Of a stretch of DNA of 42,438 bases, positions 14,391 through 29,169 are shown one piece after another. Where the stretch lies: positions 1 through 42,438 of IMG/VR virus record IMGVR_UViG_3300006916_000096. One strand, 5' to 3'. The translations under genes were made by a program, and so were the position numbers. The notes beneath the pieces were generated by a model that was not told where the DNA came from, searched no databases, and worked only from the letters and a program-made list of their open reading frames with translations. The DNA is from a virus. Numbering within the stretch: the first letter of the stretch is position 1; each line of letters begins with the position of its first letter.

Positions 14391-15071
14391 TTAAGGTTCT
14401 TTACCATCCTTCGTTTCTGTTGAGACTCCTTCTTCTTTTTCATTCGTGCTTGCTTCTTGTTTCTTGAACTCTTCTCGTATGTCGTTGGTGATTCCGAGAA
14501 GTTTCTTTCTTGTTTCATTGTTTACTGATTCCTTAGGAATAAATTTAATTGCACCTATCTGTCTGTTCAGGAACACTGGGGTTCCATCAGGATACTTCTC
14601 GGTCAGCACATCTAAGCTCCACTGTACCTTGACTTCTCCTGCAGATAAGCCACCTTTAGTTTCAAACAACTGCAGTATCTCATACGTAAAGTACTCTTCA
14701 CCCAGATCACTTATTAGTTTATTGATATGAGATGAAGAACTCTTGTATGTTTTCCAATTAGATACCTTACGCTCTTTACCTTTGCGATACATATGGAATT
14801 GTTTCTTACCAATGTATCTCTTTGGTTCATCGGGATGACTGCAAGTTATCATATAGATAAACCCGAAGTAATCTTCAGGATCAAAAGGAGGACCACTGTA
14901 TAACCAGTGGCCCAAGTCTTGGTTAAAGGGGACTATTGATTTTGGATAATTATCGCTATAGATATCCTCCAAAAACAGATTATAGTCTCCGTTATAATAC
15001 TCTTTAATATACTCCTCTTCGGTTATCCCTTCATCCTCTAGCTGTTGCTTTACAAAATTAAAATTAGTCAT
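14391..15071 (-). CDS. GIY-YIG-like endonuclease
   Basis: A GIY-YIG-like core is visible: GFIYMIT at residues 70-76 and RYIGKK at 85-90, with a following basic helix (HMYRKGKERK) and a possible metal-binding Glu in ETKGGLSAGE. These are the two signature strands of the GIY-YIG nuclease fold. The ATG overlaps the stop of the upstream exonuclease gene by 4 nt (ATGA), so translation is coupled. In T7 the matching operon position holds the gp3 Holliday-junction endonuclease; this gene may be an unrelated replacement that resolves or debranches DNA, or degrades host DNA. Homing activity is less likely because the gene is an integral operon member, with no sign of an insertion. The C-terminal 40 residues are highly charged and probably disordered. 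Confidence 0.65.
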   Translation of the reverse strand: MTNFNFVKQQLEDEGITEEEYIKEYYNGDYNLFLEDIYSDNYPKSIVPFNQDLGHWLYSGPPFDPEDYFGFIYMITCSHPDEPKRYIGKKQFHMYRKGKERKVSNWKTYKSSSSHINKLISDLGEEYFTYEILQLFETKGGLSAGEVKVQWSLDVLTEKYPDGTPVFLNRQIGAIKFIPKESVNNETRKKLLGITNDIREEFKKQEASTNEKEEGVSTETKDGKEP

Positions 15072-15826
15072 CTTAAGTTACTCTTCCCAAAGACTTCTTC
15101 TAAAGTAAGCTCTTTAATATCGTCAAAAGATCTACGCATGTAGATTAGATTAAAGCATAACGCAAGCTTCTCTTCCCAATCACGAGGGTGTTTATCCCTC
15201 CATGTAGATCTAACTACGTCTAGCATATCATCTTTAGAAACATCTTTGAGAATCTTCTCAGCAGTCTTAGGGCCTACTCCTTTCAAACCTTGGATGTTAT
15301 CTGATGAGTCACCAGTTAGTAGTTGTTTACACAGTAGGTAATGACCATTCTCTTCACTGATTTCATACAGCTTATCTTTATTAAAGTTGTAATGCCAACC
15401 AGGGATCATGTCAATGTCTTTATCTATGTGAGCAATAACCCAAGAGTCTCCAGCTTCTTGTGCTTCGGTTGCCCAGATAGATACTAGGTCATCTGCTTCG
15501 CAACCATCAGCGGGTACACACTCAGTATCCCAACAGTACTTGTATAAGTTATCAAGTCTTTCTTTAATCTTTGGATCTACTTCATACTTGTTACGGTTAG
15601 CCTTGTAGTCTTCCGCTAAGTCGTGCCTAAAGTTACCCTTACCTTTTACAGCAACGTAACCCTTCGAGCTGTTGGTGTCTCTCATCACAGCTTTCAATGC
15701 CAAGTCAAAGGTACTCTGGGCTTGGCTGTCTGTATCTACAGTAGCTGCAATGCGGTACAACATAGAGTCTGCATCAATAAAACATTTATCAAACTCAAAC
15801 TCTTCTTCATTAGTGAACGTCAGCAT
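15068..15826 (-). CDS. 5'-3' exonuclease of the FEN/T7 gp6 family
   Basis: It removes RNA primers and degrades DNA from 5' ends. The 252-residue protein has the acidic metal-binding sets of the family: FIDAD (D18, D20), EADD (E110, D112, D113), DKD (D135, D137) and GDSSDN (D173, D176), followed by a helix-hairpin-helix segment GVGPKTAEKIL beginning near residue 183. The start overlaps the end of the DNA polymerase gene by 17 nt and the stop overlaps the GIY-YIG-like gene by 4 nt. T7 gp6 also lies after DNA polymerase. Together with the primase-helicase and polymerase it forms the replication core. Confidence 0.9.
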   Translation of the reverse strand: MLTFTNEEEFEFDKCFIDADSMLYRIAATVDTDSQAQSTFDLALKAVMRDTNSSKGYVAVKGKGNFRHDLAEDYKANRNKYEVDPKIKERLDNLYKYCWDTECVPADGCEADDLVSIWATEAQEAGDSWVIAHIDKDIDMIPGWHYNFNKDKLYEISEENGHYLLCKQLLTGDSSDNIQGLKGVGPKTAEKILKDVSKDDMLDVVRSTWRDKHPRDWEEKLALCFNLIYMRRSFDDIKELTLEEVFGKSNLR

Positions 15827-16832
15827 AGCTATCTCCTATTTCTCCGTCACCGTCCATACACATAACACCTACAGATTTAGGTGCCTCTCTGAAAGCTTCA
15901 ACACAGATATCCTTTACGGCCTCTGCATCGCTTTCTTTTGCTACGAATACTACTTCATCATGATAGAACAGAGTAGGATAGGCGTCAAGGTTTTTCTCCT
16001 TGATCTTATCATAAGCATATACCAACGCAGCTTTACAGGTAATACCTTCCAGTGTTTGCAACAGGTAGTTCAATGATTGATGCTCTGAACCTACCATGAT
16101 ACGTCTACCATCTGCACCCATAATAAACCCTTGCCCTGTTCTCATAAGAGAGTGTCGGTACTCATCTTCTAAGTTATCCTTCAGACTTTTAAGTCCAGGT
16201 AATGCAGCCTTGAATTTATCATCAGCATCCTTACCAATCTTAGCAGACTTCTTACCTGACACAGCTTCACCTAGCTTAGCGTGACCTGCACCAAACAAGT
16301 AGGCATAGATGAATGTCTTAGCCTGTGGCCTGGAGATCCCAAGGATATCTGCATTACGTTGGTGTACATCCCCGTTGATTACCTCATTGGTAAAGGTATC
16401 ATCATTAATATAATGACACAACCCACGGAACTGATTACCTGCAGAGTCTGCACCGATAACTTTGTAGCCATCTTCAGCAATCAACAGGCTCCGTAGTTCC
16501 TTACCATAGGGGGCATAGACACCTGGAATGTTGACGATTGTCCTGTGCCTACACCTGAAAGATGGAGTGCCGATTGTAAACATAGAGCCATGAAGACGAC
16601 CGTCATTAAACTTCTCTTCATCTTTAACCTCTTCTATCCAACCTTCGACTGTACCCAGTCTGTTACGTAACATGTAGTAGTCACTGATAAGCTTACCCAA
16701 TCTACCCAACGGCTTCAAAGAACTGTCGGTTAGCTTAGGGCTTTGTCTAATCCACTTACCATTAATCTTCTTAACAGTCCAATCATCAGGCTTCCACCCC
16801 CTATCCATAAGGAACTTCTTAACCTCTGCCAT
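15810..16832 (-). CDS. DNA polymerase (family A), C-terminal polymerase part
   Basis: It carries the nucleotidyl-transfer domain of a T7 gp5-like polymerase. Motif A is GADSAGNQFR with catalytic D129; motif B is R168, K172 and Y176 in KTFIYAYLFGAG; motif C is HDE at 291-293. Y176 matches T7 Y526, the residue that lets the enzyme accept dideoxynucleotides and that is common in virulent phages. Q134 stands where T7 has the steric-gate E480. The frame continues upstream without a frameshift for 42 codons to a TAG at 16959-16961 that separates it from the exonuclease part, so the natural protein may be one chain of about 610 residues. The ATG at 16830-16832 has only a weak AGG before it and is not a convincing independent start. 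Its 3' end overlaps the exonuclease gene. Confidence 0.85.
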   Translation of the reverse strand: MAEVKKFLMDRGWKPDDWTVKKINGKWIRQSPKLTDSSLKPLGRLGKLISDYYMLRNRLGTVEGWIEEVKDEEKFNDGRLHGSMFTIGTPSFRCRHRTIVNIPGVYAPYGKELRSLLIAEDGYKVIGADSAGNQFRGLCHYINDDTFTNEVINGDVHQRNADILGISRPQAKTFIYAYLFGAGHAKLGEAVSGKKSAKIGKDADDKFKAALPGLKSLKDNLEDEYRHSLMRTGQGFIMGADGRRIMVGSEHQSLNYLLQTLEGITCKAALVYAYDKIKEKNLDAYPTLFYHDEVVFVAKESDAEAVKDICVEAFREAPKSVGVMCMDGDGEIGDSYADVH

Positions 16833-16958
16833 CTGACCTATGTTAACATTGACTAACTCTACTCGAGTGTATGGTCCAGCTACAATACCATCGGATGCCC
16901 GACAGTCTTCTTCAATCTGGAACCAATCAGTTACCCTTTTATAGTAGTAGCCATCTTT

Positions 16959-16961
16959 CTA
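16959..16961 (-). other. In-frame amber codon inside the DNA polymerase gene
   Basis: The exonuclease and polymerase parts are in the same frame (the two ATGs differ by 810 nt, 270 codons). Only this TAG separates them. The 42 codons after it read as ordinary protein up to the next ATG. CAG to TAG is one simple origin. TAG ends at least five other genes here. Confidence 0.85.
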
Positions 16962-17642
16962 TGTGATCTGATCTACTTCTTTGTTGCCTCTCATAACAGC
17001 AACCTTACCAAGCTGGGGGTTTATCTCTTCCTCGATATGCTCCATCTCTTCAATGATATGTTCATACAAAGCCTCTGCTTTATCCATATCAAATACCCAA
17101 CCCTTCTGAGTAATCTCTGCATTTACTTTTGCAAAGTCATGCTCAAGGTTAAGTGCTTGAAGGAACATAGGGTTCTGTTTGATCAGCACTGATGCTTCTT
17201 TAGATAACCGTTGGTACACCTTGGTGTTTAGGTTAACGTCACGTATACAATACTTAAGCATCTCTTTGCTGTAACAAGTCCAGTCTTCGTGATTACCTTT
17301 CGGATACTCAAAGAACTCACCCCAACCTTTAAGGCCATGCATATGACCCCTGTTGTACTTACATATCTGTGACATCAAGAAGGTATCCCAGAGTTTAGTC
17401 TTACTATCTGGTACCCAACCTGTTAGTTTCTTAAGCACAGGTAAATCAAAGGCTATGATGTTATGACCTGCTAGTATTGTTGCCCCTGACATTAACGATA
17501 GACCTTGATCCAGTGGTGGTAAGCTATCATCATAGTCAGAGAAGGAATGGACATCCCCTGTCTGAGTATCTTCTAATACAAGACACCAGATCTTATCAGG
17601 GAATAGCCCATTAGTTTCTATATCAAATACATACTTGCTCAT
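16959..17642 (-). CDS. DNA polymerase (family A), N-terminal 3'-5' exonuclease part
   Basis: It is the proofreading domain of a T7 gp5-like DNA polymerase. Exo I DIETNGL (D7, E9), Exo II GHNIIAFDLPVL and Exo III YCIRDVNLN are all present, so the exonuclease should be active. The last about 60 residues (LEHDFAKVNAEITQKGWVFD onward) begin the thumb region of the polymerase domain, so the TAG cuts inside a domain rather than at a boundary. That argues against a naturally split two-subunit enzyme. GAGG lies 9 nt before the ATG. A 7-bp hairpin at 17655-17680 separates it from the ribonucleotide reductase gene. Confidence 0.88.
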   Translation of the reverse strand: MSKYVFDIETNGLFPDKIWCLVLEDTQTGDVHSFSDYDDSLPPLDQGLSLMSGATILAGHNIIAFDLPVLKKLTGWVPDSKTKLWDTFLMSQICKYNRGHMHGLKGWGEFFEYPKGNHEDWTCYSKEMLKYCIRDVNLNTKVYQRLSKEASVLIKQNPMFLQALNLEHDFAKVNAEITQKGWVFDMDKAEALYEHIIEEMEHIEEEINPQLGKVAVMRGNKEVDQIT

Positions 17643-17690: not shown

Positions 17691-19544
17691 TTAGTATGTT
17701 ATTTCACAAGCACCGCCTGCACATGCAGCTTCGGCACTTAGGTCAGTCTTATCTTCTACCTCTTGAACTCTAGTAAGATCAATACCAGTCAATGCATTTT
17801 CCATTAGACGGTAACGTTCTTCTGTGATGTCTTCGAATGGTGCTTGCACATAAGTACCACCATCGTATGGTAAGACAGAGATACCGTTGAAATGATAACG
17901 GTTCTTCCACATCCACTCACCTACCAGTTCCCACTCATCATCTTTGATAGAGATAGTACATGATACGTTGTGACTGTTCTGACCTTCACGGTGACCTGGA
18001 GCCACCCACTCTGTATTATACCGACCAACCCTGTTAAGTAGATCAATCGGACTTTCGTTACGAAGTATAGAACCTTCAGGTGCAGCTTGAGGTATCTCGA
18101 TTACAGCTTGCTCTTCAGGTTTGAAATACTCGTCCTCCACCAACTCTGGGTGGTGCTCAGCGAAGTATCCATATAAGGCTTCATTCTTTCCGATACGTTG
18201 CCTACGAATGTAGTAATCGTTATGCCAAGCATGAATACCAGAACTGCTGCCCAGCACACAAGAACTAGTGCCGCTTGGCTTGACAGTAGTACAACGTGCA
18301 GCGCAGTTGATGCCCAATAGTTTAGCGACTCTTTCATTCTCTTTCTTTACCTCCTCAGCGGCTTCTTCTAAATCATATTCTAGCACAGTACCAGAACCAA
18401 TACCAGTTTGACCTACACCGATAAGAGCTTCACGTTCACAAGTCTCTTGCCATTCAGGTCGTAGGTAATGGAAGTCTGTATACCCTGCTTGTAATGTGCC
18501 AATCAATGATGCAGCTCTTGCTCGTTCATTGAGATCCTTTTGGGATGTAATGTCAGATACATTCATCTCAGTTAGGTTACACATTTGATATGGACGTAGA
18601 CCAATCTCACAACATGGGTTAGTACCCCAGTCTTTGTCGTTGGTAAGATAGATACCTGGCTCACCAGAACCTGATAGTCTTACACGTTCCCATAGTTTAT
18701 CAAAGGATTCTTTAGTAATCTTGTGACGTAGTATTACAGCAGAATTGTTTGCTCGTGCTCGTTGTGGATTCTGTTCCCACCAAGAACCAGACTTACAACC
18801 TAGCATAGCAGAGTCATCCATAGAGAACAACGATATCATAGCAGCCCTACGGATACCACCAGTTAATACAGCGTCAGCAATGTAGCACATCATGTCATGT
18901 ACTTCTAGTGTGGTAAGCTGACGTCCTACTGCTTGGTCAAAGATAGATCTCATATTGTGGATACAATCTTTAAGGGGCTGAGGACCTGGGGCTTTACCAC
19001 CTGTAGTAATTAGCATGGCTCCCTTAGGTCTGATGTCACGGTAATCAAACTCTACATCCATCATGTTGTAGAAGTAAGATTCACATAGAACTTTTACTGC
19101 ATCTGCCCAGCCCTCAATATTATCTGACACAAGGAACCTACGCTTACGTTTCTTAGGCCCTGCTACTTCAGGTAACTTACGAACATGATGACGTTGAACT
19201 GAGTAGCCTACCCCAGTACCGCCAAGTAATAAGAACATACTCTCAGGAAATGATTCGGTACTTTCAATAGGTAAGTATGCACAGTTGTAGATTCTATTGG
19301 GGGCTAGCTCGATAGGTGCACCACCAAACTGCAATGCTCTCATTGAAGGTAGGCATTTCTTTTCATACACCAGCTTGTATGCTTTTTCAATTTCTTTCTT
19401 CATCTTAGGGTACTTGCGTTGGTGCATCTCTTTGTTTCGAGTAACCAACTCATGCCAAGTTTCCCTGCGTTGTAACTCAGGTATGTACTTTGCGTACTTG
19501 CTGAATACAGTTATGTCTGATAAGATTTTATTTGATGTGTTCAT
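17691..19544 (-). CDS. Class II (adenosylcobalamin-dependent) ribonucleotide reductase
   Basis: It reduces ribonucleotides to deoxyribonucleotides for phage DNA synthesis, using a B12-derived radical. It resembles the monomeric Lactobacillus leichmannii ribonucleoside triphosphate reductase. C311 and E313 in NPCCEIG match its thiyl-radical C408 and E410; C322 lies exactly 11 residues later like C419; C88 in YNCAYLP fits the partner cysteine C119; and C608 and C613 near the C-terminus match the C731/C736 redox shuttle. The phosphate-binding PSGTSSCVLGSSSG loop is present. At 617 residues it is about 120 shorter than the Lactobacillus enzyme. Its start overlaps the stop of the Endo VII-like gene (ATGA). 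It works upstream of the polymerase encoded next. The host must supply or import cobalamin; no B12 gene is in the window. Confidence 0.93.
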   Translation of the reverse strand: MNTSNKILSDITVFSKYAKYIPELQRRETWHELVTRNKEMHQRKYPKMKKEIEKAYKLVYEKKCLPSMRALQFGGAPIELAPNRIYNCAYLPIESTESFPESMFLLLGGTGVGYSVQRHHVRKLPEVAGPKKRKRRFLVSDNIEGWADAVKVLCESYFYNMMDVEFDYRDIRPKGAMLITTGGKAPGPQPLKDCIHNMRSIFDQAVGRQLTTLEVHDMMCYIADAVLTGGIRRAAMISLFSMDDSAMLGCKSGSWWEQNPQRARANNSAVILRHKITKESFDKLWERVRLSGSGEPGIYLTNDKDWGTNPCCEIGLRPYQMCNLTEMNVSDITSQKDLNERARAASLIGTLQAGYTDFHYLRPEWQETCEREALIGVGQTGIGSGTVLEYDLEEAAEEVKKENERVAKLLGINCAARCTTVKPSGTSSCVLGSSSGIHAWHNDYYIRRQRIGKNEALYGYFAEHHPELVEDEYFKPEEQAVIEIPQAAPEGSILRNESPIDLLNRVGRYNTEWVAPGHREGQNSHNVSCTISIKDDEWELVGEWMWKNRYHFNGISVLPYDGGTYVQAPFEDITEERYRLMENALTGIDLTRVQEVEDKTDLSAEAACAGGACEITY

Positions 19545-22243: not shown

Positions 22244-22624
22244 TTAAATAAGTTCTTTGAGTTGTACACTATGTTTAGTCCAGTCTCCAGACTCAACAAT
22301 AGGTTGTGATTTGTAGCGATGACCTTGTAATGTATAGATCAAAGCTGTTCCATAATCAGTAGACACTTCCTCCCTGTCATAAAAGTTAGTGGCTTCATTG
22401 CCACTGTAACCTTCAAGTGTGTCTAGTTTTCGTAGTGTATCTTCACTCACCTCATAAACTTCTACAAGGATATGTGAGTCTCCACTACGGATGCCTGGGT
22501 AGCTACCAAGAGAGAACATCTCGTAGTCTGGTATCCATTGTGTCCCAATCATTTTAGATTCACCAAGGACTCGATGATTACCGAGCCCCTTTCTAAGTGA
22601 ACCATATACAGCTACGTTACGCAT
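22244..22624 (-). CDS. GGCT/AIG2-like gamma-glutamyl cyclotransferase
   Basis: The family cleaves gamma-glutamyl amides, releasing 5-oxoproline. The 126-residue protein has the signature YGSLRKG (Y7-G8-S9-L10) that binds the substrate carboxylate, SYPGI at 41-45, and LDTLEGY with E71 at the place of the catalytic glutamate of human GGCT. I use the ATG at 22624, directly after AGGAGGAACT, because upstream ATGs overlap the ATP-grasp gene and lack the motif context. It is the last gene of the amidoligase cassette. It may undo or trim gamma-glutamyl-type amides formed by the ligases. Confidence 0.82.
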   Translation of the reverse strand: MRNVAVYGSLRKGLGNHRVLGESKMIGTQWIPDYEMFSLGSYPGIRSGDSHILVEVYEVSEDTLRKLDTLEGYSGNEATNFYDREEVSTDYGTALIYTLQGHRYKSQPIVESGDWTKHSVQLKELI

Positions 22625-22632
22625 AGTTCCTC

Positions 22633-23790
22633 CTAAGTATACACGTGGCATGGAGCAATAGTAATTGGTAAGCACCACTGCTCTTCTTCGCTATCATTAT
22701 AACACAAGACTAGCTCACCGTCATCACCTACGACTTCGTAGACAAAGAAGTAACCAGACCTACCATGATAGTCATCTTCCATCCAACGTTCGAGTGCATC
22801 TGACTTGCCACCGTTGTTCATAAATCTTCTTAGGCAAGTGTATAGATTATCTGTAAGGTATACTGTTTCACCTTCTTCAATATAATAATCATCAACATCG
22901 TATGGAACATTCAATGCTTCATCTAACTCCGTTAAAGATTGCAAGGCAAGTTGATCTGAAGTTAATACTTCATCATACCTTGGTATCTTTTTATTATCTA
23001 TTAGAGCCTGAAGGGCTCCGGAGTATCTAGCTAACGTTGTGTTACCATTCAGTCCACATGCAGTGTTCACCTCTAATACAGTTGCTTCCTTCTTTCTTTC
23101 ATTCCATATCACATCTACCGCACCGAAGTCTAACCCTAATACATTTACTGCATTAACTGCACTAGATATTACTGAAGGTGATGGCTTAACATCTGAGATT
23201 GTAAATACAAATCCGTTACTGTGGTTTCTGATTTGATAGTTCTCAGGTGTTGTACCATGTGGTACTGCCTTACGTTGTATAAGTATAGGTACATTCTTTA
23301 CTACATGCACACGATACTCGTCACGCTTCTTCATGTATTTAGTATACAAAGGTGCATTGTATACAGCACTGCTTGCAGATACATCTTCCTTGTATCTTAC
23401 AAGATCTAGCCCTTCACCTGAATGACCTTGCATTACATTACGAATAACAACATCATGCCCTTCATCGTACCACTGTCTAGCAATGCTTACATGTGTTGTC
23501 CAGTCAGGTATAGGTATCGGTAGTATTGAATCAGCATTATCTCTGTCGATAGTCTTGAAGAACTCTAGCTTATGAGATGCTAATCGAATCTTATGGGGTT
23601 TGTTAAATACTCTAGCTTGTCTAAATGAAGACAGATCTATAGTTGAGTTACCCCAGTTGATTAAAACTAAATCGTTTTTATCTGTAACAGATGAGCCTTC
23701 AAGTTTCATTCTCTTACAGTTTAAAGAATTAGCTAACAGTTTTGCAGATTCACTTCCAGATTTATAAGGTACTACTAATACTTGGCTCAT
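22633..23790 (-). CDS. ATP-grasp carboxylate-amine ligase
   Basis: ATP-grasp enzymes activate a carboxylate as an acyl phosphate and join it to an amine. The 385-residue protein has a glycine-rich loop QGHSGEGL at 121-128, DEYRVHVV at 157-164, DFGAVDVIW at 221-229 and the magnesium-binding ExN pair (E240, N242) in EVNTACGLNGN. The last 100 residues form an additional acidic domain (YDVDDYYIEEGETVYL) of unknown role. Its ATG overlaps the stop of the amidotransferase gene (ATGA), a sign of coupled synthesis, and its TAG stop lies just before the GGCT gene. Substrate is unknown: peptide, amino acid or a phage or host surface component are all possible. Confidence 0.82.
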   Translation of the reverse strand: MSQVLVVPYKSGSESAKLLANSLNCKRMKLEGSSVTDKNDLVLINWGNSTIDLSSFRQARVFNKPHKIRLASHKLEFFKTIDRDNADSILPIPIPDWTTHVSIARQWYDEGHDVVIRNVMQGHSGEGLDLVRYKEDVSASSAVYNAPLYTKYMKKRDEYRVHVVKNVPILIQRKAVPHGTTPENYQIRNHSNGFVFTISDVKPSPSVISSAVNAVNVLGLDFGAVDVIWNERKKEATVLEVNTACGLNGNTTLARYSGALQALIDNKKIPRYDEVLTSDQLALQSLTELDEALNVPYDVDDYYIEEGETVYLTDNLYTCLRRFMNNGGKSDALERWMEDDYHGRSGYFFVYEVVGDDGELVLCYNDSEEEQWCLPITIAPCHVYT

Positions 23791-24941
23791 TGTATTGTCT
23801 CCATACAGAAGTCATCGTCTGTTAAAAGATAAACATCTTTTTGTGATTGAAGTATCTCTTCTACTTCATCCTTCTTATCTAAGTTGTTTACATCCTCAGC
23901 TATTATTTCTTGCAACCAAGGTGTAGTTAAGATAAGTTCGTAAGTGCTTCCAGTCTTTACCATACTCTGAACTATACCTGTGTAGTACCCAGCTACTGCA
24001 GGTACAGGAGCTTGGAAGCATTTGATCTCCAAGTTCTGACCATCGGTAGTGATACCACCCATCGGCGTGGTTTGTTTGGAACCTGTCGGTATGCCTTCAG
24101 AATAAAATTCTACTTCATCACCAGTCTTTAAACCATAGTCCTTTAGTTTATTTAACGGATGACCTGGTGTCTTTTTTACATCGTTAGACCATTTGTTTTG
24201 ATTCCAATTGTTGTAGTACACAGTCGTAGGTTTAACATACTTAGGTTGTATCTTTACCTTTCTGAAAGATGGTTTAAGACCTGTAGTATCTTCAACGTTA
24301 AAGGTAGCAAGCATACCTACAGGTAACTCTTCAATGGTATAGTCTATATCATTACGAGTTAGGATAGCTTCAAGCATATACCTTTCTGATGCATAATAAA
24401 ATGTATCTCTGGTCTTATGCTTAGCAATCCACATAGGTCTCTCTTGATTACGAACAATATAAAACTCCATCTTATTATCGTTGTACCAAGTCAGAGCAAA
24501 CGCACCTTTCAATACACTAATAACTTCTTCAGGGTTATCAGTCAGACCCATAGCATATGCAATGTTCTCACTGTCTACCTTAAAGTCTTTGTAATCTGGA
24601 AGTGTAGTCTGATCACCAAGTGTACCGTTGTGAGCTAGCGTTACATTACCGTAAGTAAACGGGTGAGCATTGATGTCATTCACTGCACCCTGAGTAGCAT
24701 ATCTGTTGTGACCTAGGAGAAAGTCACCGTATATATTACCAGCAATAGCAGAACCCTGCTTAAGTTGTAGGTAATCTGGAGCACTAACAGCACGTTTGTA
24801 TGTTAAAACCTCGTTGTTTGCATCGTTGGTTGCTACACCTGTACTATGAGAACCACGAAGAGTATCTACAAATAGTAATTGTTGAAACACTTTTGCATCT
24901 TGGAAGTTGATATCGCCTATCACGCCAACTAATCCGCACAT
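23787..24941 (-). CDS. Class II glutamine amidotransferase (Ntn hydrolase)
   Basis: It releases ammonia from glutamine for amide formation. The catalytic Cys is C2 (MCGLVGVIGD), exposed after removal of Met1. The other family marks are present: RGSHSTG at 29-35, GHNRYATQG at 77-85, AHPF at 92-95 and HNG at 104-106, where the Asn and Gly form the oxyanion hole. The glutaminase domain covers about the first 220 residues; the remaining 160 have a basic linker and a small beta domain and show no synthase domain such as those of GlmS or PurF. The acceptor enzyme is therefore probably a separate ligase in this cassette. It overlaps the amidoligase gene upstream by 13 nt and the ATP-grasp gene by 4 nt. 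Confidence 0.88.
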   Translation of the reverse strand: MCGLVGVIGDINFQDAKVFQQLLFVDTLRGSHSTGVATNDANNEVLTYKRAVSAPDYLQLKQGSAIAGNIYGDFLLGHNRYATQGAVNDINAHPFTYGNVTLAHNGTLGDQTTLPDYKDFKVDSENIAYAMGLTDNPEEVISVLKGAFALTWYNDNKMEFYIVRNQERPMWIAKHKTRDTFYYASERYMLEAILTRNDIDYTIEELPVGMLATFNVEDTTGLKPSFRKVKIQPKYVKPTTVYYNNWNQNKWSNDVKKTPGHPLNKLKDYGLKTGDEVEFYSEGIPTGSKQTTPMGGITTDGQNLEIKCFQAPVPAVAGYYTGIVQSMVKTGSTYELILTTPWLQEIIAEDVNNLDKKDEVEEILQSQKDVYLLTDDDFCMETIQ

Positions 24942-25834
24942 AATTTATCCTTTATCTTTGACAATTGTCTTGAGCCTATATTGTGATGCATGATGTTGGT
25001 TTGTACCTCTCTCATGCGTGATTGAAATAGAAGTTCTTCTGCTACCCACACACCCTCGAACAGTTTCATATTAGACAGTGACACATGTTCTTGGTTATCG
25101 TTTACAAGATCACCGAATACATACGTTAGCATAGCATTCGCACCGCTTACGCTAAGTATCTTAGGGATTCTGCTTATAGATTTGTTAGGATTTTGAACAA
25201 ACTTCTTGAGTGCTAGTATATGATTAATCCAATTGGTTAGCACATAGCAATTGGAGGTGCCCCGATGGCCTCTGAACTCGATAGCCCCACGTTCCCTAAG
25301 GGAAAGTAAGTTTATCGCAGAGTACTTAGTCCATGATGGTTCCTGCAAAGAGTCAGGACCAGCTTCAAATATACGTAGTAGGTTTTGTATTTGATTCTGC
25401 CCACGATATAAAGACAGAGAGTATATACTTTCTTCTCTCTCTTGTCCACATATACTGAACAGATACGGTTCTACCATAGCATACAAAGTTACAAGGTCAC
25501 ACACAGAAGACCATAGCATATCTCTAGCATCCATGTGTACATGCACAGACGTACGGTAACCAAACGTACCTTGATTAGTCAAAGCTAATGCTAGCTTCTC
25601 TACTCTTTTCTGTGCACCAGATCCACCTATAGGTCCATCGAATACATACTCTACTCCGTTGTTACGAAGGGATCCATCGGGTATGCATCGCCATCCAGGT
25701 ATTCTTGGAGGGTCCATAAGGTTTTCTACTTCTACCTCAACGCCTATCCTGGTGCCTGATATCAGGTTACCAAGACGGTTTGTCTCTGGTTCTTGAGGTC
25801 TAAGATTGTATCGAGATTGAATTGTGGAATCCAT
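24929..25834 (-). CDS. Putative amidoligase of the glutamine-synthetase-like fold
   Basis: The 301-residue protein matches the pattern of the putative amidoligase family (Pfam PF12224 as I recall): GVEVEVE with E33, E35 and E37; DGSLRNNGVEYVF at 53-65 with E62; GYRTSVHVHMD with H98 and H100; and a later GAIEFRGHRG segment. In glutamine-synthetase-like ligases such Glu and His residues bind the metals and ATP, and the Arg binds phosphate. I choose the ATG at 25834 over a TTG at 25843 because GAGGA would be too close to the TTG. It overlaps the unknown gene upstream by 35 nt and the amidotransferase downstream by 13 nt. It probably forms an amide or peptide-like bond on an unknown substrate. 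Confidence 0.78.
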   Translation of the reverse strand: MDSTIQSRYNLRPQEPETNRLGNLISGTRIGVEVEVENLMDPPRIPGWRCIPDGSLRNNGVEYVFDGPIGGSGAQKRVEKLALALTNQGTFGYRTSVHVHMDARDMLWSSVCDLVTLYAMVEPYLFSICGQEREESIYSLSLYRGQNQIQNLLRIFEAGPDSLQEPSWTKYSAINLLSLRERGAIEFRGHRGTSNCYVLTNWINHILALKKFVQNPNKSISRIPKILSVSGANAMLTYVFGDLVNDNQEHVSLSNMKLFEGVWVAEELLFQSRMREVQTNIMHHNIGSRQLSKIKDKLCAD

Positions 25835-26486
25835 TTGGGACAATCCTCATTATCATTGGAATCAAGTGATCAACTTTGCAGGAGACTTCTATCCTGCCAT
25901 CTTTAATCACACCTATTGGTCTACCCTTGTACGACAGCACAGGGTGTTCGACATCATACATAGAAGAGAATGCAAAGTGTGGAGAGATAGCTCGTGAAAT
26001 CATTTCACCACTCACCACGGTTTCAAAGGCTTCTTCAAATGGACTGTAGGTTGGATTGAATAACTCTGATATCTCATTGTTACCTATATCTAACCTGTAA
26101 TTAATGTTGTCGTTTACTACGAGATGCCTGATAATTCTTTTATCAAGAATCTTATGCTCAACATTACTCCATCTAAAACCTTTCTTCCATTGTCTTCTAG
26201 CTACACGTTCTACATACATAGTATGTTTGTTACTATTAATGAAACCTAGTTTAGGCCAGTCAAAGTTAATATCATTACTTGGATCGTCACTGTATAGTAA
26301 CACACGATCACCGTTAACTTTATCTACACTAATAGCTAGAGCACCATCATCAGTTTCTATATTGGATACTCTACCAACATACCAGCCATCATCATCCCTG
26401 CTTTTAAACTGTAGGTATGTATCTGCGTAAGTTGCATAGAAGTCTCTTGGACTTATGTCCGACAGTATTAGTTCACCGTTTCTCAT
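25800..26486 (-). CDS. Unknown protein of the amidoligase cassette, 228 aa
   Basis: No family is recognised. The first half is beta-rich and acidic (YLQFKSRDDDGWYVGRV), resembling a small SH3-like or tudor-like barrel in strand pattern only; the second half is mixed. There are no cysteine pairs, no signal peptide and no membrane segment. Its ATG overlaps the stop of the ligase-type-2 gene (ATGA), and its 3' end overlaps the next ligase gene. Such wedging between two ligases suggests that it is a partner, a scaffold or a substrate of the pathway. That is inference from context. Confidence 0.7.
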   Translation of the reverse strand: MRNGELILSDISPRDFYATYADTYLQFKSRDDDGWYVGRVSNIETDDGALAISVDKVNGDRVLLYSDDPSNDINFDWPKLGFINSNKHTMYVERVARRQWKKGFRWSNVEHKILDKRIIRHLVVNDNINYRLDIGNNEISELFNPTYSPFEEAFETVVSGEMISRAISPHFAFSSMYDVEHPVLSYKGRPIGVIKDGRIEVSCKVDHLIPMIMRIVPNGFHNSISIQS

Positions 26487-27274
26487 GTCATCTCCAAATT
26501 CAACTCCTGCATTATAGCTTTAGCATCATCAGTTTTACTACGATTAATAATCTTACTGATAGTTTTACCATCAGCAACTTCAAGCATCTGAGGTAGCATG
26601 TGTAGGTTTTGAGTAGCCCACATGGTTTTATCATACACCCATGACATTAACTCATTAGAGTTTAGCCAGAAGTTACTAAGGGTTCTGTACTCTACACCGT
26701 ATTGCTTGTGGCGCATTGAGCCAGCCTTACCATAAAGCTTCCGTCTTAGTTTGTCGGTGTCAATTAAAAGAGATGGCAACCCAATAACGAAGTCCATCAT
26801 CTTTACAAGGTCCTCATTGGTACCAATACTTGGGTTGTCATAGCCTACATGTATGTGCCCACCAGCAGTCCTAAGGGTATTACCTTCAGACTTTGGGGGT
26901 GGTACTGCCTTACCAGACCAAGCGTTTATATCGGGACTACAGCCAAACTCAAGGGCGTTAGGTCCATACTCTCTGAGTTGCTCTTGGGTGTAGGTGTAGC
27001 TTGGTATAATAATAGGCTGTAAGTTGTTACCTTCTAAGATGTTTCGTAGGTCAGCCATCACTGAGTCCATGTTGTGTATGAACTCCATCTTGGATTTAGC
27101 AGGATTGATATTAAACTCTGCAAGAACATTGTCCTCCTGTACACCACCGTCTTTGACAGGACGAGGACAAACTTTATTGCCACCGACATAACCGATAGCA
27201 GATGTAACAGAGCCAGTGGAATCCGCAACGAATACCTCAGGGTCTGCACCGATAGTTACATTTTCTAGACGCAT
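26483..27274 (-). CDS. phiEco32-like COOH-NH2 ligase type 2
   Basis: The 263-residue protein begins with IGADPEVFV (D11, E13), a hallmark of the phage phiEco32-like carboxylate-amine ligase type 2 family of the glutamine-synthetase fold. Further likely active-site marks are AEFNINP with E53 and N55, AGGHIHVGYD with H140 and H142, and a later VEYRTLSNFW with an Arg for phosphate binding. GAGG lies 7 nt before the ATG. It is a different type from the ligase at 24929-25834, so the cassette has two glutamine-synthetase-like ligases plus an ATP-grasp enzyme. The substrate is unknown; published proposals for the family are peptide or cell-envelope modification. Confidence 0.82.
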   Translation of the reverse strand: MRLENVTIGADPEVFVADSTGSVTSAIGYVGGNKVCPRPVKDGGVQEDNVLAEFNINPAKSKMEFIHNMDSVMADLRNILEGNNLQPIIIPSYTYTQEQLREYGPNALEFGCSPDINAWSGKAVPPPKSEGNTLRTAGGHIHVGYDNPSIGTNEDLVKMMDFVIGLPSLLIDTDKLRRKLYGKAGSMRHKQYGVEYRTLSNFWLNSNELMSWVYDKTMWATQNLHMLPQMLEVADGKTISKIINRSKTDDAKAIMQELNLEMT

Positions 27275-27286
27275 ACGTATACCTCA

Positions 27287-28198
27287 TTACGCTTGTATTA
27301 GGTGAATGATCTCATTCATTTGATCGTCATCAATCCTTGTATTAAGATAACGCAAGGAACTACCACTGTTACCGTGCTTGCGTGTGTACTCATTACGAAG
27401 GATATCATTGTTAATAATTAACTGTAGGTTACCTGTGCTGTAACTCATACCAGGTTTCTTACAGAAGAATCTACCCAAAGCACTCTTGGATGTTGCACCA
27501 TACCGCTCGTACTTGTTGACTGTAGATAGGTTAGGTTGCACACCAGAGTATAGGTCAGTATCAGGGTCATCGCACAACAATCTGTTGAGCATTAGCTTAG
27601 CACCCTTGTAACTAAAGTATGCTGGATAGATGATAGAACTCTCTTGATCAGTGCATGGGTTCATGTATTGCAACTGGTGACTAGGATCATCACCTTCCAC
27701 GATCGAACCAGATGTCGTGTTGTTCAATACAAATGCCGTCACGAACGCTACATCTTCGGGACAATTAAATTTATCAATCAGATGACAGAAGGTTCTAACG
27801 ATACCACCTTGGAACTGTGGGGCTCTAAGCAGAAACAGTGTAAGCATCGCACGATCTGCAGGGAGTCTTGCGGATACACTGAATCCATGCTTGTAACCTT
27901 TGACATTCCCAGGGGTTGTGTGTCGTACAAGACCATTGGAAATGTAAGGTAACGACAATAGGTAAGTCCACCATCGGTTGGCTATGTCCCATGTCATGTT
28001 ACTATTCATCTGTTGTTTGTCGATGGTAGCCTGTGCATCTGAGTCCCAAGTCTGTTGAAGGAACGGCAGGTAACGTACGGAATCAATGCTAGTATAGTCT
28101 ATGTTGTAGGTAGCATTGTTTACAGAAGCGAAGCAAGGTCTTGAACGGTACTGTAGGGTACGACCGTCACTGAGTTGAACATTGAAAGATACACTCAT
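27287..28198 (-). CDS. Unknown first gene of the amidoligase cassette, 303 aa
   Basis: No family is recognised. It is a soluble-looking mixed protein with several aromatic clusters (NRWWTYLLSLPYI) and scattered cysteines (CLI-, PCT-, FCKK-), and no signal peptide or membrane segment. I choose the ATG at 28198, 9 nt after AAGGATG, rather than the ATG three codons earlier, which nearly touches that site. It ends 12 bp before the ligase-type-2 gene. As the first gene of a seven-gene overlapping set it could carry the modified residue or bind the target. Confidence 0.7.
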   Translation of the reverse strand: MSVSFNVQLSDGRTLQYRSRPCFASVNNATYNIDYTSIDSVRYLPFLQQTWDSDAQATIDKQQMNSNMTWDIANRWWTYLLSLPYISNGLVRHTTPGNVKGYKHGFSVSARLPADRAMLTLFLLRAPQFQGGIVRTFCHLIDKFNCPEDVAFVTAFVLNNTTSGSIVEGDDPSHQLQYMNPCTDQESSIIYPAYFSYKGAKLMLNRLLCDDPDTDLYSGVQPNLSTVNKYERYGATSKSALGRFFCKKPGMSYSTGNLQLIINNDILRNEYTRKHGNSGSSLRYLNTRIDDDQMNEIIHLIQA

Positions 28199-28199
28199 A

Positions 28200-28286
28200 T
28201 CATTCATCCTTATGGTGATATAGGCACCAGCCTATGTGAATAAAAAGAATAGCATACAATAGTATGCCTGCGTCATTGAGCGACAT
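28200..28286 (-). CDS. Membrane micro-protein, 28 aa
   Basis: MSLNDAGILLYAILFIHIG followed by WCLYHHKDE forms one membrane helix with a His- and charge-rich end. A strong CAGGAGGTATT site precedes the ATG by a few bases. Its leader matches that of the 59-residue gene at 28322-28501. The stop touches the start region of the amidoligase cassette, so it may also act as a translated leader for it. Confidence 0.55.
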   Translation of the reverse strand: MSLNDAGILLYAILFIHIGWCLYHHKDE

Positions 28287-28628: not shown

Positions 28629-29126
28629 CTAGAAGTTAACCGCCGTAGCTGATGAAGTAGCTGTGTCCGAATCAACCTCTAACTGTAGCAAAGCAGTAGA
28701 TAGTCGATCTTGGTTGGACTTCTTAGTGTTGAAGTCTAACGCTCGAACCGCAACTATACGCACGTTAGTACCAGCTTTGAACTTGGTACCATCTTTACGT
28801 ACACCAGCAGGGTAGTCACGAAGCTCAAAGAGAACATGAGCAGTAGCACCATTCTCTAAGTCATCCTCGATATCATTGCCATCCGTATCCTGAATACTAA
28901 CAGGAGGAACAGTAACATCCATCGCACCATACTTGGCATTCGTACTATACCAGTAACCACCATCACCAGCTTCTTTCAGTCCTAGCTCAGCCAGACCGTC
29001 ACCACTAAGATGGGCTCCGTACTGTAGACCGAATTTACCATTGTATGCTCTACGTAGTTTACACGCAGAAATGGTTACGTTAGGTATAGCAACTTCTCTA
29101 ATTTGAACTTTGGTTTGTTTAGACAC
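28629..29126 (-). CDS. Second possible ssDNA-binding protein, 165 aa
   Basis: The protein is beta-rich with a C-terminal Phe (TAVNF), and has KDGTKFKAGTNVRIVAVRAL and aromatic residues (YWYS) that suit an OB-fold nucleic-acid binder. The tail (VDSDTATSSATAVNF) is less acidic than in T7 gp2.5. It is similar in size and strand pattern to the gene at 21759-22226. I use the GTG at 29126, 8 nt after GAGG, instead of a GTG nine codons upstream. It is followed by a hairpin and a terminator, so it forms an early unit with the 61-residue membrane gene. A different beta-rich nucleic-acid protein is possible. Confidence 0.55.
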   Translation of the reverse strand: MSKQTKVQIREVAIPNVTISACKLRRAYNGKFGLQYGAHLSGDGLAELGLKEAGDGGYWYSTNAKYGAMDVTVPPVSIQDTDGNDIEDDLENGATAHVLFELRDYPAGVRKDGTKFKAGTNVRIVAVRALDFNTKKSNQDRLSTALLQLEVDSDTATSSATAVNF

Positions 29127-29169
29127 GATAATATCCTCTTGGTATAAAACCACTTGGTAAATGAATTTA

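Follow-up and report, generated by a model that had tools for sequence, protein, structure and literature searches.

Two partner proteins and alternating gamma-glutamyl removers in the phiEco32-type amidoligase cassette of phages

The 42,438-base IMG/VR virus record IMGVR_UViG_3300006916_000096 (positions 1-42,438; the window) carries on its minus strand, from 28207 to 22244, what is almost certainly a complete phiEco32-type amidoligase cassette. It comprises seven open reading frames (ORFs), here named A to G and transcribed in the order G-F-E-D-C-B-A: two different glutamine-synthetase-like (GS-like) ligases (F and D), a RimK-like ATP-grasp ligase (B), a class II glutamine amidotransferase (C), a gamma-glutamyl cyclotransferase (GGCT; A) and two partner proteins of unassigned function (E and G; Table 1). 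The cassette itself is already known; what is added here is the place of E and G in it and the finding that two enzymes which remove gamma-glutamyl groups replace each other. The best overall explanation, an assembly line driven by ATP and glutamine that proceeds via a gamma-glutamyl step, is given about an even chance of being right.

Distribution of the cassette

A tblastn search with F matched 312 of 50,697 phage records. For the cassette survey, members were identified by iterative profiles in 99 sequences, 97 of which carry F; D was found in 97, C and B in 96 each, E in 84 and A in 65. The identical gene order, followed by the primase-helicase, was found in phiEco32 (gp88/gp87-gp86-gp85-gp84-gp83-gp80-gp77), and the order is also common to UFV-P2, PaP3, Clew-1 and the E. 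coli phage Bas92, with small ORFs inserted. Rearranged variants occur in the Zobellviridae. Eight further cassettes were found in metagenome-assembled bacterial genomes, with E directly after F in all eight.

Since the order is the same in dozens of divergent phages, the seven-gene set is far beyond chance. A preliminary description of this DNA had read 22244-28198 as a seven-gene amidoligase cassette with two unrecognised partners. The cassette is real, as all ORFs are present and the families were confirmed. The partners, in turn, are not peculiar to the window phage: by position they correspond to phiEco32 gp85 and gp87/88 and to unannotated genes of LUZ24-like phages. The proposed check for E and G in related cassettes found both of them present, which leaves the cassette reading standing.

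Enzyme families and active sites

A matched PF06094 (E=1e-22), C PF13522 (E=1e-13), D PF12224 (4e-5) and phrog_7469 (3.5e-42), and F PF14395 (5e-13) and phrog_3815 (8e-86). B gave no significant match to Pfam and was assigned to phrog_2599 (1e-70), a RimK-like glutaminyl transferase family named ribosomal protein S6 glutaminyl transferase. Sequence searches against solved structures returned nothing for F and only insignificant matches for B.

The GxDPE, HxH and ExR residues expected of a PF14395 COOH-NH2 ligase are present in F, where D11, E13, D48, E53, H140, E195 and R197 were kept in all 97 homologues and H142 was lost once. D contains ExE, HxH and EFR, with six sites kept in 98 of 98 homologues. 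The ATP-grasp D/E/N metal residues are retained in B (D226/E240/N242, kept in 99 of 100 homologues). Cys2 of C was found in 95 of 103 sequences, the other eight being seven gaps and one Thr, and Glu89 of A in 65 of 66. The ATP-grasp ligase, the class II glutaminase with its Cys2 and the GGCT are all located in one operon with both GS-like ligases.

Because the metal- and ATP-binding residues are kept, the ligases are expected to be active. The combination proposed earlier, in which three ligases are joined by a source of ammonia and an enzyme that removes gamma-glutamyl groups, is borne out by the confirmed families and the intact catalytic residues, and the alignment of the metal-binding residues of the ligases gave no reason to abandon the cassette reading.

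Some cassettes encode a second, shorter RimK-like ATP-grasp protein (L061, 5970-6656; L071, 4162-4884; L074, 4660-5376; L080, 1708-2394; L082, 5894-6601). Such a short second protein is also found in L100 and L102, where it is located between the Peptidase C26 gene described below and the glutaminase.

The partner proteins E and G

E matches only the function-unassigned families phrog_11055/4877, and whole-model comparison with solved structures gave no match at E 0.001. Within the cassettes it lies no more than 250 nt from D in 84 of 84 cases, mostly overlapping it, and no more than 600 nt from F in 83. These counts refer to cassettes, as the E alignments were too divergent for an exhaustive scan outside them. 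The phiEco32 protein gp85 was found to be homologous to E by iterative profile (6.6e-16) and occurs in 115 phage records, from host groups that are also seen among the F matches; in LUZ24-like phages E was confirmed by profile as UFV-P2 gp22 and PaP3 ORF47. The family shares the motif RxxxRQWKKG, in which Arg98 is invariant, and the N-terminal part of the confident model forms a Tudor/SH3-like barrel that is followed by a second domain. E is a real family and a standing member of the cassette.

G alone gave no match to Pfam or PHROG and was detected by profile in 47 ORFs. Cys25 is present in all 42 rows with a residue at this position and Arg128 in 44 of 44. Comparison of the G model with the folds in the PDB gave none below E=1. 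It matches eight viral models at E values up to 0.001, the named ones being from CW02, CVT22 and GAP52; weaker fold matches are to Aeromonas phages LAh_6 and LAh_8, EP335 and Proteus phage 3H10_20. Altogether, 12 BFVD matches were obtained up to E=0.01, of which the 8 named ones all belong to phage groups with observed cassettes: F matches are listed for CW02, GAP52, EP335 and 3H10_20, and relatives of the other phages with the G fold carry the cassette. The confident model of G thus resembles no solved structure, only proteins of other cassette phages.

The phiEco32 proteins gp87 and gp88 both contain the Cys motif and the PADx...R stretch, and the fold of G was recognised (E=0.004, probability 1.00) in a 397-aa protein of the phiEco32 relative EP335 that is as large as gp88. 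By position, fold and motif, gp87/88 are the counterparts of G. In phiEco32, LUZ24-like phages, phages of Aeromonas and Proteus and two further ones, the Cys motif was found in 21 of the 28 distinct ORFs just upstream of F compared to 11 of 933 other ORFs; as the 28 ORFs are partly interrelated, they lend support but are not independent events. G often occurs in tandem pairs in the cassettes.

Single-protein viral scans with E or G returned near-copies only, and Pfam matches among relatives of either protein were weak and scattered. The idea that E and G are the target or carrier of the modification is disfavoured and was rejected as a first choice, as both proteins are globular and widely conserved and have invariant polar residues (Arg98 in E; Cys25 and Arg128 in G); they look more like components of the enzyme machinery. 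For G, the invariant Cys25 and Arg128, the conservation of the family and the shared fold suggest an enzyme or binding subunit over a passive target.

Exchange of GGCT and Peptidase C26

A protein of the Peptidase C26 (gamma-glutamyl hydrolase/PuuD) family, often annotated as a class I amidotransferase, is encoded in many sister cassettes (examples in Table 1). Of 97 cassettes, 47 have GGCT only, 28 have C26 only, 18 have both and 4 have neither; the GGCT count includes a gene of Proteus phage 3H10_20 that is located elsewhere in the genome. The four cassettes with neither enzyme are from records of 9-16 kb, and GGCT, C26 or both are present in every record long enough to judge. In searches of whole records, the 28 with C26 only yielded no GGCT, and 34 with GGCT only yielded no C26. 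No class I/C26-type ORF was found in the window.

Fisher's test on 65 dereplicated loci gave p = 1e-4 for this pattern with relatedness ignored. It takes 9 changes to explain the three states of the trait on the tree of F, and for each label no fewer than 4 are forced by well-supported branches; the exchanges between GGCT and C26 are therefore several, not many.

PuuD, GGACT and BtrG are known to cleave gamma-glutamyl amides. Because GGCT and C26 both remove gamma-glutamyl groups, the pathway most likely runs via a gamma-glutamylated intermediate or cap that has to be removed.

Timing, location and proposed mechanism

In PaP3, ORF32-48, including the cassette ORF42-48, were described as middle genes with a peak at 10-30 min, and ORF49-50, which occupy the position of G, as early by time course and middle by inhibitor tests (PMC4707531). 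Kyte-Doolittle analysis with 19-residue windows gave no value above 1.5 in any of the seven proteins, and since there is no strongly hydrophobic segment they are taken to be cytoplasmic. Timing and place fit an intracellular action around replication. Decoration of the virion is disfavoured by the middle expression in PaP3.

In the proposed assembly line, the cassette enzymes would act in the cytoplasm, ahead of genome replication and while it is under way. C would split glutamine to provide ammonia, and the GS-like ligases F and D together with the ATP-grasp ligase B would form successive amide or isopeptide bonds on a host substrate that bears an amine or a carboxylate. E may be a dedicated partner of F and D. 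One of the added or protecting groups would be a gamma-linked glutamate, which A would remove as 5-oxoproline and the PuuD-like Peptidase C26 of the sister cassettes by hydrolysis. G, in one or two copies, may be a further enzyme or a substrate-binding subunit of new fold. As substrate, the literature mostly favours a precursor peptide of the cell wall, as a guess; a protein or a small metabolite is possible.

Several points weigh against this mechanism. In the literature, neither a measured activity nor a product was found for any member of the cassette from a phage. Physical contact of E with D or F is inferred from gene order only. In cassettes without E but with a complete D, the latter has about 170-200 additional N-terminal residues, similar to E in size; a fusion of E into this long D found no support in profile comparison, where the extension showed no detectable sequence similarity to E (hhalign probability about 0.1%). 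The GGCT/C26 pattern largely tracks phylogeny and rests on a handful of exchanges. Finally, GGCT and C26 might cleave different gamma-glutamyl compounds, for example host glutathione, without serving the ligases at all, and 18 loci have both. Among the cassettes with a long D and no detectable E, L048, L049, L050, L055, L067, L075 and L077 have a second protein of 215-249 aa that matches the glutaminase profile.

Candidate substrates

Modification of peptidoglycan stem peptides is compatible with the gamma-glutamyl assembly line and is possible, if doubtful. Here, the ligases would add amides to UDP-MurNAc peptides or lipid II or lengthen them, and the altered wall would block superinfection or ready the cell for lysis. 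In favour of this, class II (AsnB/LtsA) and class I (GatD-MurT) amidotransferases amidate meso-diaminopimelate (mDAP) and D-isoglutamate (D-iGlu). For the LUZ24-like phage U17, a putative peptidoglycan modification module was described with reference to the phiRIO-1 paper (PMC11945000), and the text on phiEco32 in PMC10580990 repeats the suggestion of a cell-wall modification against superinfection, after Iyer et al. 2009. The idea of the preliminary description that the cassette may protect the phage or alter the host surface repeats this published suggestion (PMC11945000, PMC10580990), for which no biochemical test was found in the literature. On the other hand, none of the seven cassette proteins is Mur-ligase-like or a membrane protein, expression in PaP3 is middle and not late, and no wall chemistry was found reported in the literature.

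The tagging of a host protein with glutamate or amides by the ATP-grasp ligase and the other ligases, in the way RimK modifies ribosomal protein S6, followed by trimming by A or C26, is rather unlikely; such tags would serve to take over the function of the protein. The name of the PHROG to which B belongs and the middle-phase expression (PMC4707531) are consistent with it, and protein targets were argued for other phage ATP-grasp peptide ligases by Burroughs, Zhang and Aravind (PMC4431377). However, the usual substrates of GGCT and PuuD-type enzymes are small gamma-glutamyl compounds, the alpha-linked polyglutamate made by RimK would not be among them, and the cassette contains no evident substrate protein.

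A role as auxiliary metabolic genes in amino acid (nitrogen) or glutathione turnover appears improbable. In the parts of PMC10945688 that concern Phage-ZRK32 (L005), which carries F, E, D, C, B and A, such a role is proposed, and presence of the phage raised the growth of a Pseudomonas strain with ammonium; the same parts contain no mutational link between this effect and the cassette genes. Moreover, simple nitrogen assimilation requires neither conserved E and G nor two different GS-like ligases.

Least of all is to be expected from an amide-bearing base or nucleotide that is made for replication and protects against restriction, although the cassette adjoins the primase-helicase and is middle-expressed, and although its carriers in the Gordonclarkvirinae (phiEco32 group), including Bas92 with the full set, are reported to show an unusual resistance to restriction-modification without known cause (PMC11990801). 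The BASEL authors point to a dCTP deaminase instead, and among the window proteins that were scanned, a part of the ORFs, there was no base-modifying enzyme, dTMP/dCMP hydroxymethylase or 7-deazaguanine enzyme. Global hypermodification of DNA is disfavoured by digests of two cassette phages: 11 of 16 enzymes cut the DNA of the LUZ24-like phage U17 (PMC11945000), and that of phage tf is cut by RsaI, HpaI, EcoRV, SmaI and HaeIII (PMC3517423).

A bolder form of the gamma-glutamyl assembly line is unlikely to hold as a whole: a protecting-group pathway that would build an undescribed modification, whether on the host wall, on a host protein or on the phage genome. In it, G would be an enzyme of new fold that uses its invariant Cys and Arg, and E an adaptor coupling the GS-like ligases. 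If true, this modification could explain the resistance of the phiEco32 group to restriction.

Cassette layout and other genes of the window phage

The preliminary description had all seven genes joined by overlaps. This holds from F to B, with overlaps of 4 nt (F/E), 44 nt (E/D; 35 nt if D starts at the in-frame ATG), 13 nt (D/C) and 4 nt (C/B). G and F are separated by a gap of 12 nt, and the 46-nt overlap of B and A is probably an artefact of calling an upstream GTG for A, since GGCT homology begins at ATG 22624 and a start there leaves zero overlap. The start of G at 28198, as given in the preliminary description, is backed by its relatives, since the first Met of most of them aligns there.

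Table 1. Genes of the amidoligase cassette in the window and examples of Peptidase C26 genes in sister cassettes.
Feature	Sequence	Coordinates	Strand	Remarks
G: partner protein, function unassigned	Window	27287..28207	-	306 aa; relatives suggest start 28198; model pLDDT 86.7
F: phiEco32-type COOH-NH2 ligase, GS-like	Window	26483..27274	-	PF14395, phrog_3815
E: partner protein, function unassigned	Window	25800..26486	-	228 aa; phrog_11055/4877; model pLDDT 93.1
D: amidoligase, GCS/GS-like	Window	24929..25843	-	PF12224, phrog_7469; start inside E, TTG 25843 or ATG 25834
C: class II (Ntn) glutamine amidotransferase	Window	23787..24941	-	Catalytic Cys2; C-terminal extension of ~190 aa
B: RimK-like ATP-grasp ligase	Window	22633..23790	-	phrog_2599; C-terminal extension of ~100 aa
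A: gamma-glutamyl cyclotransferase, GGACT/AIG2/YtfP type	Window	22244..22678	-	Likely start ATG 22624
Peptidase C26	L003	3467-4150		Annotated class I glutamine amidotransferase
Peptidase C26	L093	235-879		Annotated class I glutamine amidotransferase
Peptidase C26	L099	4259-4879		Annotated class I glutamine amidotransferase

The window belongs to a tailed marine phage. Its plus strand carries the genes for terminase, portal and capsid, its minus strand those for a T7-type RNA polymerase, primase-helicase, family A polymerase and class II ribonucleotide reductase. The closest counterpart of the capsid protein is in Roseobacter phage CRP-7 (52%), and no near-DNA match of the window to phage records was found. 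The DNA polymerase is apparently split (15810-17642), with the family A polymerase domain (340 aa) and the 3'-5' exonuclease (227 aa) encoded separately. A SegE-like GIY-YIG homing endonuclease (14391-15071) is flanked by the 5'-3' exonuclease and the primase-helicase. The class II (B12-type) ribonucleotide reductase (17691-19544) shares 64% identity with that of Microcystis phage Mel-JY01 and 63% with the product of a Vibrio phage VPs20 gene annotated 'recombinase'. Upstream of G, an ORF of 174 aa with a GTG start (28629-29153) is kept in 22 related loci and has no family match.

Comparison with known systems

The amidoligase cluster of phiEco32 (Kuravirus) was reportedly discussed by Iyer et al. 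in 2009. It extends from gp77 to gp88 with the same components as the window: the G-like gp88 and gp87, F (gp86), E (gp85), D (gp84), C (gp83), B (gp80) and A (gp77). The window cassette is more compact, with a C of 384 aa compared to 676 aa in phiEco32, a single G instead of two, tight overlaps and no small intervening ORFs.

The LUZ24-like phages PaP3, UFV-P2 and Clew-1 have the same order as the window, with an HNH gene inserted in UFV-P2, and E is confirmed in UFV-P2 and PaP3. Upstream of F they have two ORFs of about the size of G, most of them with its Cys motif, which was not found in PaP3 ORF49; their link to the window G consists of motif and position, the profile comparison being weak. 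The window phage differs from this group in its T7-type RNA polymerase and its class II ribonucleotide reductase.

The cassettes of Zobellviridae and Vibrio phages (CW02, Phriendly, K4, 1.262.O) contain F, E, D, C, B and a homologue of G, detected by profile and in CW02 by fold. Unlike the window, they have a PuuD-like Peptidase C26, mostly in place of GGCT, and C is located upstream of F. Their G is about 500 aa long in several cases and usually lies beside C26.

Hundreds of phages carry the cassette with intact active sites; among them are Bas92, which infects K-12, and phages of the LUZ24-like group that are considered for therapy. With E and G as standing parts and two unrelated gamma-glutamyl removers that replace each other, the chemistry is narrowed to something testable in laboratory E. 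coli, and G offers a fold without a solved relative.

Among the seven proteins, no match to a Mur ligase family, as in the MurT/GatD set for peptidoglycan amidation, was found, nor one to the glutamine synthetase, oxidase or dehydrogenase families of the Puu set (PuuA, PuuB, PuuC, PuuD), of which only PuuD has a likeness, the C26 protein of the sister cassettes. In the Puu pathway (PuuA, PuuD) and in butirosin synthesis (BtrJ/BtrG), gamma-glutamate is added at the expense of ATP and later removed by a C26 hydrolase or by a cyclotransferase of the GGCT fold. The cassette differs from both in having no oxidase, dehydrogenase or acyl carrier protein, and in its two ligases of other GS-like families, its class II glutaminase, E and G. 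What it shares with them is the logic of adding and then removing gamma-glutamate.

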